A stretch of DNA of 64,000 nt from positions 1-64,000 of the forward strand of contig JAFZBE010000069.1 of assembly GCA_017561935.1 (NCBI GenBank), in the 5' to 3' direction. The notes under the pieces were generated by a model. It did no database searches. It was not told the DNA's origin and saw nothing but the letters and a program-made list of their open reading frames with translations. The position numbers and the translations under genes are program-made. Within the stretch, counting starts at the first letter, position 1; each line of letters starts with the position of its first letter. Origin of the DNA: Bacteroidales bacterium (lineage in GTDB: Bacteria; Bacteroidota; Bacteroidia; Bacteroidales; UBA3663). Positions 31 through 6,244 of this stretch are shown piece after piece.

Positions 31-972
31 CTAGAAGGTGAATTTCTTGGCGGTGGTGGACTTGGTGGTGTTGGTGGTCTTCTTGGTGGTGGACTTGGTG
101 GAAGTGGCTTTCTTGGTGGTGGAAGTCTTCGAGGTGGCTTGTCCTGCGGCCTTGGAGGCCTGGTAATACTGCTGGGCCTCGGGGAGCCACTTCTGGATGT
201 CGGTGATGCGCTTGGCATCGCTGGGGTGGCTGCTGAGGTAGCTGGTGGAGCCTCCGCCTGAGGCGGCACTCATACGCTGCCAGAACGAGACGGCTACAGC
301 GGGATCGTAGCCTGCCATGGCTGCGAAGACGAGGCCCATGTGGTCGGCTTCGCTCTCGTTCTCACGGCTGTAGTGGGCGTTGGCGAACTGCAGGCCGATG
401 GAAGCCATCGCGGTGGCCACTTGCGCTGCACCACTGCCTACGGCCGAGGATAGCACAGCTCCGCCAAGCTGGGTGAGTTGGCTCTGGTTGTATTTCTTCG
501 ACATCTGCTCGGCGCTGTGCTTGGCCACGGCATGTGCTATCTCGTGGCCGAGGACGATGGCGAGGGAGGCCTCGTCCTGCGTGACGGGCAGGAGTCCTTC
601 ATAGACGACGATCTTACCGCCAGGCATGCAGAAGGCGTTGACGGCATTGTCCTTGACGAGATTGAATTCCCAGTTGAAATACTGGAGTTCGTTGGCGAAG
701 CCATTCTCGCGGAGGTAGGTCTCGACGGCGGTGGCCAGACGCTGGCCGACGCGCTTGACCATGGCGGTGGCGTTGGCATCGGTGGACTTCTTGGCACTGG
801 CCATGTACTCCTGGTACTGGGAGTTGCTGAGACTGAGGACCTGTTCGTCGGAGACGGACAGACGGTGGGTTCGACCGGTGATGGGCACCTTGGATGCGGT
901 GCCGCAGGAGGTCATCACTAGCGCGGTGAGCGCGGTGAGGAGGAGGGAGCGGAGGAGGGAGCGGGGGTTCAT
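31..972 (-). CDS. M48-family zinc metalloprotease, lipoprotein
   Basis: Predicted periplasmic, membrane-anchored peptidase of the M48 (HtpX/BepA/LoiP) group, which act in envelope protein quality control. The N-terminus has a hydrophobic signal and a lipobox-like TSCG, giving a lipidated Cys at residue 23. The zinc motif HEIAH is at residues 143-147, and a downstream ESEAD (about 206-210) supplies the third ligand. The last 45 or so residues are a low-complexity Thr/Lys/Ser tail rich in KSTTKK-type repeats, unusual for the family and probably disordered. A 10-bp tandem repeat lies only a few bases upstream of the ATG. The family call is firm; the substrate is unknown. Confidence 0.9.
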   Translation of the reverse strand: MNPRSLLRSLLLTALTALVMTSCGTASKVPITGRTHRLSVSDEQVLSLSNSQYQEYMASAKKSTDANATAMVKRVGQRLATAVETYLRENGFANELQYFNWEFNLVKDNAVNAFCMPGGKIVVYEGLLPVTQDEASLAIVLGHEIAHAVAKHSAEQMSKKYNQSQLTQLGGAVLSSAVGSGAAQVATAMASIGLQFANAHYSRENESEADHMGLVFAAMAGYDPAVAVSFWQRMSAASGGGSTSYLSSHPSDAKRITDIQKWLPEAQQYYQASKAAGQATSKTSTTKKATSTKSTTKKTTNTTKSTTAKKFTF

Positions 973-1010: not shown

Positions 1011-1409
1011 GACCCTCTAAATCCCCCTGCTTAGGGGGACTTTTATATAGGGTCGGAACAGAACAATGTAAAGTAAAGTGAAAATGGATTTGAGACGTGG
1101 GCTTCAATAGCCCGTCGACCAGCAGTATTTTATGCGTCAGCAATTTTACCAAAATGATAATCTGAATTATTGCACATGATTATTTTGGTGAAAATGGATT
1201 TGAGACGTGGGCTTCAATAGCCCGTCTCAGAATCCGGAAAATTGCAGATTCAATATCTGCATAAAATTGCACTTCGTGCATAAAATATACAGCTTGTCGG
1301 GACTGAGTTCATCTTGCCGCACCCCCTCTATCCCCCGCTTCTCTCGGACGTGACCGAAGGGAACAACAGCGGGGGCAGAATACCTAAGCAGGGGGATTAG
1401 AGGGGGTCC
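1011..1409. repeat. Hairpin-rich intergenic element, copy A
   Basis: This fills the 447-bp gap between the protease and OmpA genes; I see no gene in it. It starts with a CCCCCTGCTTAGGGGG hairpin motif and ends with an inverted version of it (1383-1409). Inside are two direct copies of a 39-bp unit (1078-1116 and 1188-1226), each able to fold as gggct-tcaat-agccc; in the second the outer stem extends as tgagac/gtctca. Further hairpins are gcagat-tcaat-atctgc and tgcac-ttc-gtgca. A related copy lies at 2721-3132. It resembles a MITE or a REP-like element, but no transposase is present. Confidence 0.75.
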
Positions 1410-1419
1410 AGTCTGCCAC

Positions 1420-2583
1420 CTATTTCCTAAGGCGCTTGTAGATATCTACGCGGCGGGAGATGTCGGTGGAGTTGGCGGTCTTGTCGTTGACGACGTAGAT
1501 GTCGGACTTGATGCGGCTGGACTTGATGCCGTACTGGGTGACGAGCACCTGCTTGACGTGCTTGATGCGCTTGCGAGCTTCGGAAGCGTAGGACAAGGCG
1601 GACTTGTTGTTGGGAAGGTAGGTCTTGAGGATGATCTGACCTTTCTTGTGCGACTGGGCCCATTCGGCGAGGGTAGCGAGGTCGGCTTCGTAGTCGGGCA
1701 TGTTGTAGGCATCGGTGATAACATAGTAGAGCACCATGTCGGACTCCTTGGCCTTCGTCTTCTCGATCTGTTTGTCGAACTCGGCATCATGGCGTGCGAG
1801 ACGATCGGCTGCACGTTCGGCCTTCTGCTCGGCACGTTCGGCCAGACGCTGTTCCTCGCGAACGGTGATCTCGCGGTGACGGATCTCGTCGTCGAGGTTG
1901 AGATAGCGGGCCGGTGTGGCGGGTTTGCCACGGAAGTTGAAGCCAAGCTTGAGGGTAACGATGTGCTCGGGCTGGGCATAGAAGTAATCCTTGCCGTATT
2001 CCTCGCGTTGCTCTTCGCTCATGGCGTCGAGGTACTTCTGCTCGTAGTTGTGGACGGGACGCGTGTAGGCGTAGCCGAGGGAGACGCGGAAGTCGATGTT
2101 ACGGCGCGTACGGACATAGATGCCGGGCTGGATGTCGGCATAGAGGTGGTCGGAGAAGCGATAGTCGCGCAACTCGTGGAAGCGTTCGCGGTCGCTTTTG
2201 AGACCGAAGAGGTAGCCTGTGCGTCCTTCGAGGAAGAGGGAGAGACGCTCGGAACCGAAGTTCCAACGCCAGACGACATCACCAAGGACGGGGATCATGT
2301 TGTTGGACTCGCCGCCCCAGTGATACCAGAAGCCTGAAGCCATGCCGGCGTACCAGTTGCTGGTGAAGTTGTAGCCGATGCCGAGCTCGCCACCCATCGA
2401 CTCGTCGTAGTCGGTGAGGCCGTCGCCCACGTTTATGTCACCGCGACCGGCAACATTGCCGGTGACGTTGATCTTCAGTTCCCACTTCTTATTGATGCCA
2501 TCATCGTAGTTGTCGGGTTTGCTCTGGGCAAAGGCTGCGGAGCAAAGGGCCGCACATGCTATGAATGGAATGTATTTCTTCAT
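1420..2583 (-). CDS. OmpA-family outer-membrane protein, DUF3575-like barrel
   Basis: Predicted outer-membrane beta-barrel with a C-terminal OmpA-like domain. A signal peptide (MKKYIPFIACAALCSAAFAQ) is followed by aromatic, alternating strands typical of a barrel (roughly residues 40-240), a charged coiled-coil linker rich in Glu/Arg/Ala (about 245-285), and an OmpA-like end with ASEARKRIKHVKQVL, the stretch that in the family packs against peptidoglycan. An upstream in-frame ATG at 2616 is rejected because it overlaps the -7 box at 2614-2621; the ATG at 2583 starts a clean signal peptide. The gene is flanked on both sides by copies of the hairpin-rich element. The specific role is unknown. 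Confidence 0.85.
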   Translation of the reverse strand: MKKYIPFIACAALCSAAFAQSKPDNYDDGINKKWELKINVTGNVAGRGDINVGDGLTDYDESMGGELGIGYNFTSNWYAGMASGFWYHWGGESNNMIPVLGDVVWRWNFGSERLSLFLEGRTGYLFGLKSDRERFHELRDYRFSDHLYADIQPGIYVRTRRNIDFRVSLGYAYTRPVHNYEQKYLDAMSEEQREEYGKDYFYAQPEHIVTLKLGFNFRGKPATPARYLNLDDEIRHREITVREEQRLAERAEQKAERAADRLARHDAEFDKQIEKTKAKESDMVLYYVITDAYNMPDYEADLATLAEWAQSHKKGQIILKTYLPNNKSALSYASEARKRIKHVKQVLVTQYGIKSSRIKSDIYVVNDKTANSTDISRRVDIYKRLRK

Positions 2584-2613
2584 TTTTTCGTTAACGTTTC
2601 GCACTATAGAATG

Positions 2614-2621
2614 CAAAGATA
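2614..2621 (-). promoter_or_regulatory. Probable -7 box (TATCTTTG) for the OmpA gene
   Basis: Reads TATCTTTG on the minus strand, about 30 nt before the chosen start codon. No clear TTTG lies at the usual -33 distance, so only half of the Bacteroidetes consensus is seen. Confidence 0.5.
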
Positions 2622-2720
2622 GGGGATTTATTTGAAATACGGGCTCAATGAAAGAAGAATTGTGGACGAAAAGGGACTGAAATGGGCAATTTGACGTGTA
2701 GAGTGGGCAAATGAAGCAGT

Positions 2721-3132
2721 GGACCCCCTCTAATCCCCCTGCTTAGGGGGACTTTTTAAACGGGTCGAAAAAGAACAATGTAAAGTAAGGTGAAAATGGA
2801 TTTGAGACGTGGGCTTCAATAGCCCATCGACCAGCAGTATTTTATGCGTCAGCAATTTTATGCTGCCTATTGGAGGCAGCAATTTTGGGGCAACCAGGCT
2901 TGGCTATTGATGCCAAAGCCGTTGCCATTTTTGCCAAAATGTTAATCTGAATTATTGCAGTTGATAATTTTGGTGAAAATGGATTTGAGACGTGGGCTTC
3001 AATAGCCCGTCTCACAATCCGGAAAATTGCAGATTCAATATCTGCATAAAATTGCTATCGCATAAAATCCATCCGGACACTGATATTGAGCCCGCTGTCT
3101 CCTGCCATCTTCATAATTATCGGGACTGAGTT
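2721..3132. repeat. Hairpin-rich intergenic element, copy B
   Basis: Second copy of the element at 1011-1409, in the same orientation, filling most of a gap of about 550 bp without a gene. It shares the CCCCCTGCTTAGGGGG hairpin, the gaacaatgtaaagtaa leader, two 39-bp units (2790-2828 and 2973-3011), the gcagat-tcaat-atctgc hairpin and the final tcgggactgag. Between the two units it carries about 73 extra bases that themselves fold, with ctgcc/ggcag and ggcaac/gttgcc arms around ggctttggc-like inner arms. It lacks the terminal inverted motif found in copy A. Confidence 0.75.
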
Positions 3133-3134
3133 GC

Positions 3135-4754
3135 TTACTGGAGGAGCTTGCGGGCTTCGCGGTCGATGTCGTCAACGACTTTGCATTCGTCGTTGAGGAG
3201 CATGCTTTGGCCGGTTTCGGGGGTGTAGCGGGGCCACTCGGGGAGGGAGGCGCAGTTAGGATCGCCAGTGCGCATGAAGGCGAGGAGGGCGTCGGCCATC
3301 TTGTTGGAGAGGGCACGTGGACGTGCGCCGCCACCGGTGTGGGTGACCATGAGGTCGGTGTTGTGGAACCAGAAGCAGATGTCGAGGCAATGGAACGCAC
3401 GCATACGACCGTCGAAGAGCGGTGGCTCCCAACCGAACCAGGCGAGGTAGAGCGGTGCAGGCTGTACGGCCTTGGCATTGATGGAGCCGATGACGCGGTC
3501 GCGTGAGCTCATGATGTAGCCGAGGAGTTGGATGCCTGATACGTCGGGCAGTGCCTTGCGATAGGCTTCGATGATGGCCTTGGCGTCACGACCGGGCTTG
3601 GTGCGCTCGACGAAGGGGATGAGCTGCTCGTCGGTGAGCGTCTCGAGGGCGGCATTGGTGCGGCTGACGGAATTCTCGCAGGTAGTGGTGCAGAAGATCA
3701 TCGGGACGTTGGCAGATGCACCGTTGGGATCCTGGAAGAACGTGCCCTTGGGGATGTTGCGGCCGTCGGCTACGGGGCCGAAGGCACCACGCATCATGCC
3801 GTTGCCCTTGGTCTTCTGGTTGTACTCGGCGGCTGCCTCGTTGGCGAGCTTGAGGTATTCGATCCAGGGCATCGAGGTGAGCTTCTTCATGTTACGACCG
3901 GCTTTCTGATAGATGTATTTGCCGAGGGCGGAGCTGTAGTTCTGATCGATGGCACCATAGATATTGCCGCTGAGAGCCACGGCCTTGCTGATCAAGCCTT
4001 TGCAAGCGTCCATGGCCACGAGGGTGCAGACCTTAGCTCCACCACCCGACTGACCCATGATGGTGACATTGTCGGGGTCGCCTCCGAAGGCTTCGATGTT
4101 GTTCTTGACCCACTTGAGAGCCTCGACGAGGTCGAGGATGCCGACGTTACCGGAGTCGGCATAACGTGGATCGACGGCCGAGAAGTCGGAGAAGCCGATG
4201 GGGCCGAGACGGTGATTGACCGACACGAAGACGACATCGCCATAACGGCTGAGGTTCTCGCCGTGGTAGCCGTCCTGTTCGATGCCATTGCCATTGGTGA
4301 AGCCGCCGCCGTGGATCCAGAAGAGCACGGGACGCTTCTTGCCATCGGCAATGCCCTGGGTCCAGACGTTGAGCTTGAGGCAGTCCTCGCCTACGTCGTA
4401 GTAGTTCCAGTGGTCGGAGAAGGTGTAGTAGTTGTTACCATACTTGCCTTCGGTGAACTGCGGTGCGCAAGCGCCGTAGAACACGGTGGGCAGGGTGTCG
4501 GTCCAGGCTTCGGGAGCCTGGGCGGGGAGGAAGCGACCCTCACCTTCGGTGGTCTTTCCGTAAGGGATGCCGAGGTAGGTGTAGGTGCCGTGGAGGATGT
4601 AACCCTTGACGTAGCCGTACTGCGTCTTTGCTACGGCGATGTTGTCGCCGATATAGAGCTGCTGCTCATCGGCGGGGTCGGGAGACTGGGTGGGCTGCTG
4701 GGCGCAAGAGGCGAGCATGAGCAGCGCGAGGGGAAGGAAGTGGAGGGGTTTCAT
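3135..4754 (-). CDS. Type-B carboxylesterase, lipoprotein
   Basis: Alpha/beta-hydrolase of the carboxylesterase/lipase (COesterase, PnbA-like) family, which hydrolyses carboxylic esters. The N-terminus is a lipoprotein signal ending in LASC (Cys 17), so it is probably anchored in the envelope. The oxyanion-hole motif IHGGGF is at about 147-152, the nucleophile elbow is GQSGGG with Ser 236, and a FHCLDICFWF stretch near the C-terminus holds the expected catalytic His. At 539 residues it has normal family length. Its neighbourhood (GH28-like protein) makes removal of acyl groups from a plant polysaccharide plausible, but that is inference. Confidence 0.9.
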   Translation of the reverse strand: MKPLHFLPLALLMLASCAQQPTQSPDPADEQQLYIGDNIAVAKTQYGYVKGYILHGTYTYLGIPYGKTTEGEGRFLPAQAPEAWTDTLPTVFYGACAPQFTEGKYGNNYYTFSDHWNYYDVGEDCLKLNVWTQGIADGKKRPVLFWIHGGGFTNGNGIEQDGYHGENLSRYGDVVFVSVNHRLGPIGFSDFSAVDPRYADSGNVGILDLVEALKWVKNNIEAFGGDPDNVTIMGQSGGGAKVCTLVAMDACKGLISKAVALSGNIYGAIDQNYSSALGKYIYQKAGRNMKKLTSMPWIEYLKLANEAAAEYNQKTKGNGMMRGAFGPVADGRNIPKGTFFQDPNGASANVPMIFCTTTCENSVSRTNAALETLTDEQLIPFVERTKPGRDAKAIIEAYRKALPDVSGIQLLGYIMSSRDRVIGSINAKAVQPAPLYLAWFGWEPPLFDGRMRAFHCLDICFWFHNTDLMVTHTGGGARPRALSNKMADALLAFMRTGDPNCASLPEWPRYTPETGQSMLLNDECKVVDDIDREARKLLQ

Positions 4755-4761
4755 GGGTTGA

Positions 4762-4797
4762 AGGGTTAAGAGGGGTTAAGAGGGGTTAAGAGGGGTT
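4762..4797. repeat. 10-bp tandem repeat upstream of the esterase gene
   Basis: About 3.5 copies of ggggttaaga, the same unit as at 978-1007, again only 7 bases upstream of a minus-strand start codon. It fills most of the gap between the esterase and the next gene. Confidence 0.85.
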
Positions 4798-4801
4798 CTT
4801 A

Positions 4802-6244
4802 CTACAGGTCGAAGCAGGAGTCGAGGGTGAGCTCGGGGGCGGATTGGAGGCGGGAGCGCTGGGCTTCGTATTCCTTGGCTTTGATATTGGAAGAGGACGA
4901 CGCGGGAGCGACAATCTTCGAGTAGGTGTCGTTTTCGCGGAGGTAGGTGGCCTGGAGGCGGCTGTTCTTGATGAGGTAGATGGCCTCGGATTCGTAGCCG
5001 TTGGGGAAGCTCATGTAAGTGCGGAAGGCACCTGAAGAGGGATAGACGTGGGTGTTATCCAAGTTGTCGATGAAGAGGAGCTCATGCTGCTGGTTGCGGG
5101 CCGTGAAGACGGCGAGTCGGTCGTTGAGGTCCTTGCAGATGCGTTCGTCGATGCCATCGTCGTCAACATCGACAAACAAGATGCTCACAGGGGCAGCCAC
5201 ATAGTCGCCACGGCTGTTGAGGGCCTCCTGGAAACGCGTGAGGAGCTTCTGTTTCTCGAGCATCGGATTGCGCAGTTCGGTGTATCGCTTCGAGATGTAG
5301 AGCACCTGCTGCTTGAAGCGCACCTTGTAGAAGTCGCCCGACTGGCCGAGGTAGGCCAGGTTGTCGCCTGCCAGCGGATAGATGGGACGGCCCTTGGCAT
5401 CGGAGAAGATTGCGTGGTCGGTGGAGGGACCTCGGCGCAGACGCACACCACGACCTGTGACATGCACACAGCGGTCGAGGATGAGGTAGCGGTAGATGAT
5501 ATTATTGTAATCGACCACATATACCGTATCCTGCGTGCGTGTAGCCTCGATATACTGCGGTACAGAAGGCGTGGGCACATAGTCGAGGGCTACGCCTGTG
5601 CGACGATCGATGAGATAGACGTAGTCGTCGATGCCTGCTCCTCCGAAACCCGAGACAACGTATTTGTCGAGGACGTCGAACTGGCTATTGCACACCTCGT
5701 AGTTGGTGCGCCAGACGATGCGGTCGGCCTGGATGTCGAAGCAATAGAGCTGGTAGGAGAAATAGCCAAACTCGGTGAGGCGGTTCTCACTGCCCATGGC
5801 GAGGTAGAACCGGCCATCGGAATAGCGGAAGTCAACCACACGACCATCGGTGAAGACATCGCTGAGGAGGAACTGGCGGGTGGGTGTCTTTTCGTGGTTA
5901 TAGAGGACGAGGACGGTGCGTGGCTCGATGATGTTGCAGTCCGGCTCGTCGAAGACAGCGTAGTAGCCGAAGTCGGTCTTTTCGAAGAATGAGACCTGTA
6001 GGCCGGCCACCTCGTCGGGAGGGGTGAGACTTGCGTCGCGGAACCAGATGCCCGAGATGATGCTGCCCTTGACCTCATTTCGGCCGGTGATGCCGAAGTT
6101 GTCCTCGTAGATCATCGATATCTCGACGTCGTAGTAGCCCTCACCAATCTGCTCGAGGGTCCAGAAGTCGTCCTTGACGAGGTGCTGGGCGGAGGCAGCG
6201 GGGAGGATGAGGAGGGCGAGGATGAGGGTGAGGGTTGTTTTCAT
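4802..6244 (-). CDS. Secreted protein with propeller-like N-half and SH3b-like domain
   Basis: I do not recognise a named family. A signal peptide (MKTTLTLILALLILPAASAQ) leads into about 230 residues of repeated aromatic/acidic strands (for example YLIDRRTGVALDY and VYVVDYNNIIYRYL) resembling a beta-propeller. Around residues 265-330 is an SH3b-like segment (GVRLRRGPSTDHA ... GDFYKVRF ... LYISKRYTEL), a fold that often binds peptidoglycan or peptides. The C-terminal part (VDVDDDGIDERICKDL) resembles an Asp-rich calcium-binding repeat. A GTG four bases upstream of the preceding gene's last base could also start it; the ATG giving the cleanest signal peptide is chosen. It directly follows the GH28-like gene, probably in one operon. 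Confidence 0.6.
   Translation of the reverse strand: MKTTLTLILALLILPAASAQHLVKDDFWTLEQIGEGYYDVEISMIYEDNFGITGRNEVKGSIISGIWFRDASLTPPDEVAGLQVSFFEKTDFGYYAVFDEPDCNIIEPRTVLVLYNHEKTPTRQFLLSDVFTDGRVVDFRYSDGRFYLAMGSENRLTEFGYFSYQLYCFDIQADRIVWRTNYEVCNSQFDVLDKYVVSGFGGAGIDDYVYLIDRRTGVALDYVPTPSVPQYIEATRTQDTVYVVDYNNIIYRYLILDRCVHVTGRGVRLRRGPSTDHAIFSDAKGRPIYPLAGDNLAYLGQSGDFYKVRFKQQVLYISKRYTELRNPMLEKQKLLTRFQEALNSRGDYVAAPVSILFVDVDDDGIDERICKDLNDRLAVFTARNQQHELLFIDNLDNTHVYPSSGAFRTYMSFPNGYESEAIYLIKNSRLQATYLRENDTYSKIVAPASSSSNIKAKEYEAQRSRLQSAPELTLDSCFDL

Follow-up and report, generated by a model that had tools for sequence, protein, structure and literature searches.

ERIC and Correia elements are palindromic intergenic repeats of about 100-150 bp that can end up in mRNAs. 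REPINs and BIMEs, which are mobilised by RAYT enzymes, consist of an inverted pair of polar hairpin units, lie in extragenic DNA, show compensatory changes and are predicted to form hairpins as single-stranded DNA. Prokaryotic MITEs are short, noncoding and dispersed, end in inverted repeats and vary in occupancy between relatives. The BOX elements of Streptococcus (boxA-B-C) are folded and built of modular, swappable parts, can be transcribed as leaders and have an unknown mobiliser; they are over-represented between convergent genes (PMC3049150). In the attC sites of integrons, structure is conserved while sequence varies, and the stems carry bulges.

The repeat described here, element A, shares all of these features of REPINs, MITEs, BOX and attC except the convergent-gene setting of BOX, in place of which it is often found between a promoter and a start codon. 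With ERIC and Correia elements it has in common that it is palindromic and intergenic and can become part of mRNAs. Unlike REPINs and BIMEs, it measures about 240 bp, has three hairpins per arm instead of one and lacks the GTAG/CGTC tag; furthermore, its arms never share hairpin versions and RAYT does not track it. It differs from prokaryotic MITEs in that no autonomous parent or target-site duplication was found and in that the arm is a structured array, not a plain terminal repeat. Judged from the descriptions, no relation in sequence to BOX was noticed, the modules of element A, compared to those of BOX, are hairpin versions in mirror-image arms, and ERIC and Correia differ from it in sequence and organisation. 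In contrast to attC, it is accompanied by no cassette genes, and no integron integrase scored above cut-off in 15 genomes. The open-licence literature on Bacteroidetes palindromic repeats and MITEs and on REPIN/RAYT yielded no matching description. The family is previously undescribed, akin to REPINs, BOX and MITEs without being assigned to any of them.

Architecture of element A and of the window copies

The intact element is an inverted repeat, 225-290 bp long in most copies. Read from the end inward, each arm has the order GTGAAAATGG-HP1-CCGGAAAATTG-HP2-CAnAAAATTGC-HP3-GCAnAAAAT and is followed by a variable centre. Its three hairpins, of 36-41 nt (HP1), 17-22 nt (HP2) and 9-13 nt (HP3), are self-complementary and separate four boxes that contain AAAAT. 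The boxes beside the hairpins read AAAATGG, CCGGAAAAT and ATAAAATTGC. Over 81 parsed arms, 39 versions of HP1, 27 of HP2 and 19 of HP3 were counted; boxes, loops and bulge polarity are alike in both arms. Inverted-repeat ends, a length within about 100-400 bp and a noncoding nature, as required of MITEs, are all found in element A. In the left arm, AAGGAGG precedes a mini-ORF (MDLRRGLQ); a coding role was considered but is unsupported, as other arms carry other frames.

The window, i.e. the whole stretch of 64,000 nucleotides that was analysed, contains two copies, A (1011-1410) and B (2720-3132), located where the original prediction had placed them. The copies are 1.7 kb apart and align in two blocks of 129-130 nt each, with 95% and 94% identity. 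The two share a 28-base hairpin core, of which the 64 kb contain exactly four occurrences (none expected), and both copies fold far below their shuffled counterparts (z -9.4 for A, -8.5 for B). Searching the window with Rfam at the gathering score gave zero matches. Both copies are degenerate members of the family, compounds of two element-A units within an outer inverted repeat (GACCCTCTAAATCCCCC...AGGGGG / CCTAAGCAGGGGGATTAGAGGGGGTC): a first element, in which the left arm is truncated inside HP1 and fused to the centre and right arm, is joined by a linker hairpin to a second element whose right arm is cut short (Table 1). A stretch of 73 bases in copy B (approximately 2861-2933) had been read as an insertion that folds into hairpins; the hairpins are there, but they are HP2' and HP1' of the right arm of unit 1, which copy A has lost. 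Likewise, the final TCGGGACTGAG is indeed common to A and B, but the family as a whole does not conserve it as a terminus. Since 1420-2583 has no Pfam match, the OmpA name of the gene between the copies rests on the original prediction and on the appearance of the sequence.

Table 1. Parts of the two window copies, flanking genes, and UG26 reverse transcriptase loci (positions are those of the window unless preceded by a locus handle)
Feature	Position	Strand	Remarks
A, outer inverted repeat, left half GACCCTCTAAATCCCCCTGCTTAGGGGG	1011..1038	+	1020-1035 complementary to 1383-1398
A unit 1, arm box GTGAAAATGG and truncated HP1 (class 1a)	1078..1116	+	
A unit 1, right-arm remnant ATTTTATGC-GTCA-GCAATTTTA	1127..1148	-	HP3', loop GTCA 1136-1139; HP2' and HP1' deleted
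A linker hairpin CCAAAATGATAATC...GATTATTTTGG	1149..1188	.	
A unit 2, complete left arm	1187..1286	+	Ends TAAAAT; box 1187-1197, HP1 1196-1235, HP2 1243-1261, HP3 1268-1280
A, outer inverted repeat, right half CCTAAGCAGGGGGATTAGAGGGGGTCCA	1383..1410	-	100% complementary to 2720-2747
B, outer inverted repeat, left half TGGACCCCCTCTAATCCCCCTGCTTAGGGGG	2720..2750	+	
B unit 1, arm box GGTGAAAATGG and truncated HP1	2789..2828	+	
B unit 1, right arm	2840..2935	-	End CCATTTTTGCC; includes the 73 bases first read as an insertion; HP3' 2845-2854 (loop GTCA), HP2' 2861-2881, HP1' 2889-2926
B linker hairpin CCAAAATGTTAATC...GATAATTTTGG	2934..2973	.	
B unit 2, left arm	2972..3068	+	Ends TAAAAT; box 2972-2982, HP1 2981-3020, HP2 3028-3046, HP3 3053-3062
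B unit 2, remnant of right-arm HP1' (class 1b) ATTGAGCCCGCTGTCTCCTGCCATCTTC	3083..3114	-	Compared with right arms of L007/L020
Peptidase M48 gene	31..972	-	Start 39 bp from copy A, which lies upstream
OmpA-like gene	1420..2583	-	Copy B upstream of likely promoter
Carboxylesterase gene	3135..4754	-	A copy like B lies upstream of the G005 version
UG26 reverse transcriptase	L208:2114-3455		RT-5 RNA upstream
UG26 reverse transcriptase	L209:2058-3387		RT-5 RNA upstream
UG26 reverse transcriptase	L210:2482-3690		
UG26 reverse transcriptase	L211:1-537		

Distribution and site occupancy

Element A is a genus-specific, dispersed family of palindromic interspersed repeats in rumen bacteria. The 3.34 Mb draft genome to which the window belongs gave 65 blastn matches to copy A, corresponding to approximately 40 separate copies, and the element is present in 6 of 15 congeneric genomes. 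A search beyond the window, as the original prediction had proposed, thus shows the repeat genome-wide and in congeners, so that it is not confined to the window. It is absent from 45 genomes of other families, from all genomes outside the genus in a sample of 393 covering 206 genera of the order, and from the viral contigs, plasmids and phages searched. An exact-core scan with one genome per species matched just two further assemblies, both of them MAGs of Bacteroidales that come from the rumen or omasum of water buffalo. Every genome used is a draft MAG, which is the main weakness of the analysis, as palindromic repeats often lie at contig ends and assembly errors could mimic some of the differences between genomes.

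The sites of the element turn over. In four relatives (G005, G007, G003 and G004) with flanking genes 94-73% alike, neither of the two window sites holds a copy; the gene order of M48 peptidase, OmpA-like protein and carboxylesterase is kept in the first three, and that of the first two genes in G004. Other small palindromes occupy those two sites in relatives. The orthologous intergenic regions of G005 and G007 (L141:1310-1499 and 2721-3067) hold another family of short palindromes, GGCGGCCAAGNNTGGCCGCC, with GACAAGGACGCGG spacers. The nearest relative, G005, with genes 94% identical, has a compound copy 93% like B upstream of its esterase gene, while the equivalent position in the window (4763-4802) is empty; this reciprocal occupancy implies gain or loss since the species split. 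Furthermore, one orthologous leader, with the flanks AATAACAAG and TTGTT...TAGAAG common to both genomes, contains element A in G005 (L091) and, in G000 (L123), an unrelated insert, C. Insertion polymorphism, another hallmark of MITEs, is therefore found for element A, in draft MAGs only. Together with the dispersed copies and inverted-repeat arms, the occupied and empty orthologous sites support the MITE-like origin that had been suggested. No clear target-site duplication was found at the window copies. At a locus with insert C (L105), a 30-bp direct repeat surrounds the insert. Direct and inverted repeats built on GGCCAAGATTGGTTATGGTC are seen in three species of the genus (L014:1716-2044, L035:1284-1689, L063:877-1162).

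The 94-95% likeness of two copies lying only 1.7 kb apart could also have arisen from a local tandem or segmental duplication in which no mobile element took part. Such a duplication may be the reason for the strong likeness of A and B, but as a full explanation it is contradicted by the dozens of other copies across the genome and by the reciprocal occupancy in relatives, and it is extremely improbable.

Hairpin structure and arm exclusion

The half-stems of HP2 are complementary at 94.6% of positions, compared to 49.5% with permuted partners (maximum 69% in 5000 permutations). Among eight HP2 versions of equal length all cells pair, both sides change in 4 of 7 pairs, and covariation scores 0.74, compared to 0.25 after shuffling, with none of 500 shuffles as high. 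Compensated stem pairs include GCTGCC/GGCAGC to GCTGTC/GACAGC, and GGCTC/GAGCC to both GGCAC/GTGCC and GGCTT/AAGCC. Each of the 39 versions of HP1 folds into a hairpin, and in nearly all of them a bulge of 1-3 nt sits on the same side near the loop. Stems thus vary in several compensated versions, whereas loops and bulges are conserved. The covariation check proposed in the original prediction has therefore turned up compensatory changes, and these sequence comparisons support selection on base-paired structure. Copies confined to this place and lacking covariation, which it had named as refuting, are not what was observed. Between the arms of one element, box position X matches in 12 of 22 cases and position Y in 19 of 22; given the low figure for X, covariation does not prove that the boxes pair across arms.

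The two arms of an element exclude like hairpins. Among elements with both arms classifiable, the same version is found in both arms in 0 of 36 for HP1 (7-8 expected), 0 of 38 for HP2 (9-10 expected) and 0 of 36 for HP3 (3.6 expected, p about 0.01); for HP1 and HP2 such a result was not reached in 20,000 permutations, and as the copies are related by descent these p-values are optimistic. Part of the exclusion could itself be due to descent. Across arms, 8 combinations of versions were counted for HP1, 8 for HP2 and 27 for HP3, so the versions have been reshuffled, yet like pairs are missing.

The predicted DNA fold (z -9.0) mostly keeps HP1 and HP2 of the natural sequences local on a shared stem, giving two stacked crosses, while HP3 is more often paired across arms than folded locally. 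When the arms are made identical in silico, the local hairpins vanish completely. This points to unlike arm versions preserving local hairpins over cross-arm pairing. Long perfect palindromes are unstable in bacteria, and this instability offers a simple reason for arm exclusion, of which it would be the cause.

Promoter leaders and the choice between DNA and RNA

Intact copies are in many cases placed shortly after a TTTG-N19-TAnnTTTGCAGC promoter and ahead of an ATG. Of 86 parsed copies, 35 have a TAnnTTTG promoter box no farther than 115 bp away on one side but not on the other, compared to about 8 expected from the density of the box in these loci, and in 13 of these 35 the box is 71-72 nt from HP1. 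An ATG-initiated ORF of at least 60 aa starts no more than 260 nt downstream in the direction of the promoter in 24 of the 35, and outward on the other side in 17 of the 35. A putative transcript start for leaders bearing element A is TTTGCAGC. At five other loci (L125, L126, L082, L087, L138), genes begin with the same initial transcribed stretch, TAnnTTTGCAGCGnnCATTTCGA, with no insert; this is possibly a genus-wide operator or start-site motif.

The frame TTTGCAGCGTCCATTTCGA-N4-TCGAAAAC...ATAATAACAAG / TTGTTATATAGAAGCG also houses unrelated palindromes in G004 and G000, among which cassette B is marked by GAGCGAAGCGACC and cassette C by TTTTCGGAAT. In G004, about 40 promoter-leader frames hold families B and C (L063, L074, L080, L095, L099, L105, L117), family B being GGTCGCTTCGCTC...GAGCGAAGCGACC with a GCGAAGC mini-hairpin and family C GTTTTCGGAATNC...ATTCCGAAAA. 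It is conceivable, though doubtful, that cassettes A, B and C are swapped at a fixed dock, ATAACAA...TTGTTATATAGAAG, by a structure-recognising recombinase for which the mismatched arm hairpins act as a code. A pattern search for empty docks returned two near-matches only.

The one-sided promoter boxes, the RNA fold (z -9.6) and the room that transcribed 5' positions leave for a role of the RNA would also agree with element A being a structured, cis-acting mRNA leader that has spread to many genes, with its transcript structure selected for stability, attenuation or translational control. The original prediction had likewise proposed selection on RNA structure, of which the selection on structure stands, but RNA in particular is not the best reading. 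Both the strand of the loop and the side of the bulge are equal in the two arms when each arm is read from its own end, so that in a transcript one arm would always bear the complementary loops. On the reverse strand, 77 of 81 arms show HP3 as either C-GNA-G or C-GNNA-G, and its polarity does not differ between the two arms. Most of its nine loop types (GAA, GCA, GTA, GATA, GTCA, GTAA, GTTA, GCAA and GCTA) do not follow the RNA GNRA rule, which 2 of the 6 tetraloops satisfy. In DNA, by contrast, GNA triloops (Yoshizawa 1997, as cited in PMC6479982) and d(cGNNAg) tetraloops (Nakano 2002, as cited in PMC8373063) are, according to the citing papers, exceptionally stable. Furthermore, element A is found in either orientation within leaders, the unrelated cassettes B and C occupy the same place, and the window copies lie outside the promoter-leader frame and antisense to their neighbours, with B upstream of a likely promoter. 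A leader RNA function is therefore unlikely, and the conservation of features in the frame of each arm, together with the DNA-stable loops of HP3, points to each arm being recognised as DNA, as far as sequence can tell.

Candidate mobilising enzymes

Neither a mobilising enzyme nor an autonomous parent was found for element A. As in REPINs, the element is extragenic and is built of two polar hairpin units that have bulged stems and face each other in inverted orientation (PMC3116915), and one RAYT is encoded in G000. Movement of a REPIN-like element by this Y1 HUH enzyme is nevertheless improbable, as the GTAG/CGTC tag is missing at the hairpin foot, RAYT genes are present in three genomes without the element (G006, G010, G014) and were not found in the element-rich drafts G003, G005 and G007, and the G000 RAYT is flanked by different palindromes of its own, CCCTGAAAGGGCT. 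With gene presence failing to track the element, RAYT was rejected as mobiliser. The RAYT gene (L056:1300-2060, G000:C61) is preceded by the same promoter leader.

Retro-mobility by a UG26-type reverse transcriptase with RT-5 RNA was also considered. The enzyme scores 522-530 bits in G003, G005 and G007 and is partial in G011, all of them element-rich, and the Rfam RT-5 RNA lies directly upstream in G005 and G007. However, this co-occurrence is confounded by clade, the enzyme was not found in the genome of the window, which has most matches to the element (assembly 77% complete), UG26 is classed with defence reverse transcriptases and adjoins no element A, and the reverse transcriptase hits of element-less genomes are mostly unclassified. 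The link is a lead only, and as an explanation it is very improbable indeed. A group II intron with a reverse transcriptase is nearly the same in G000 and G005 (L206:1788-3639, L207:1884-3735).

An IS110-family transposase gene (L036:6092-7770), with a noncoding left part of about 290 nt, is inserted exactly in an HP3' loop, between GCGTA and AGC. As a single copy in one genome, inserted in a hairpin loop, it was rejected as a parent. Element A itself serves here as a target, and the insertion could be a bridge-RNA element targeting the HP3' loop. The integron integrase was dismissed, as TIGR02249 exceeded its cut-off in 0 of 15 genomes. The search for Y2/IS91 transposases gave no hit, with the controls silent as well.

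Proposed mechanism and significance

The reading that we prefer, with a probability of roughly 0.6, is that element A is a mobile DNA repeat which is non-autonomous and is recognised via its secondary structure; for this we infer a folded intermediate and an enzyme acting on it. In single-stranded form or as an extruded cruciform, the element would pair its boxes across the arms and let its hairpins protrude, so that the DNA takes the shape of a stacked cross. A recombinase or transposase acting in trans may bind and cut this stacked cross and copy the element elsewhere. Identical arm hairpins would turn the element into a perfect palindrome with arms of about 100 bp each, in which the hairpins are lost and which is likely deleted, so that only mismatched pairs would persist. 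The palindromic cassettes, element A as well as the unrelated B and C, would preferentially occupy a dock just after promoters, and many of them would consequently be transcribed as 5' leaders.

Bacteria commonly carry small palindromic repeats, but the forces that keep these repeats in shape are rarely visible. The natural variation of element A distinguishes between selection for local DNA hairpins and selection for a single long palindrome, and thereby offers a testable signature for the survival and movement of structure-recognised repeats. The occurrence of element A or an unrelated insert in an orthologous leader suggests that whole leader modules can be exchanged at promoters. If the docking of cassettes holds true, the dock lies directly downstream of promoters and the host would gain swappable 5' leaders.
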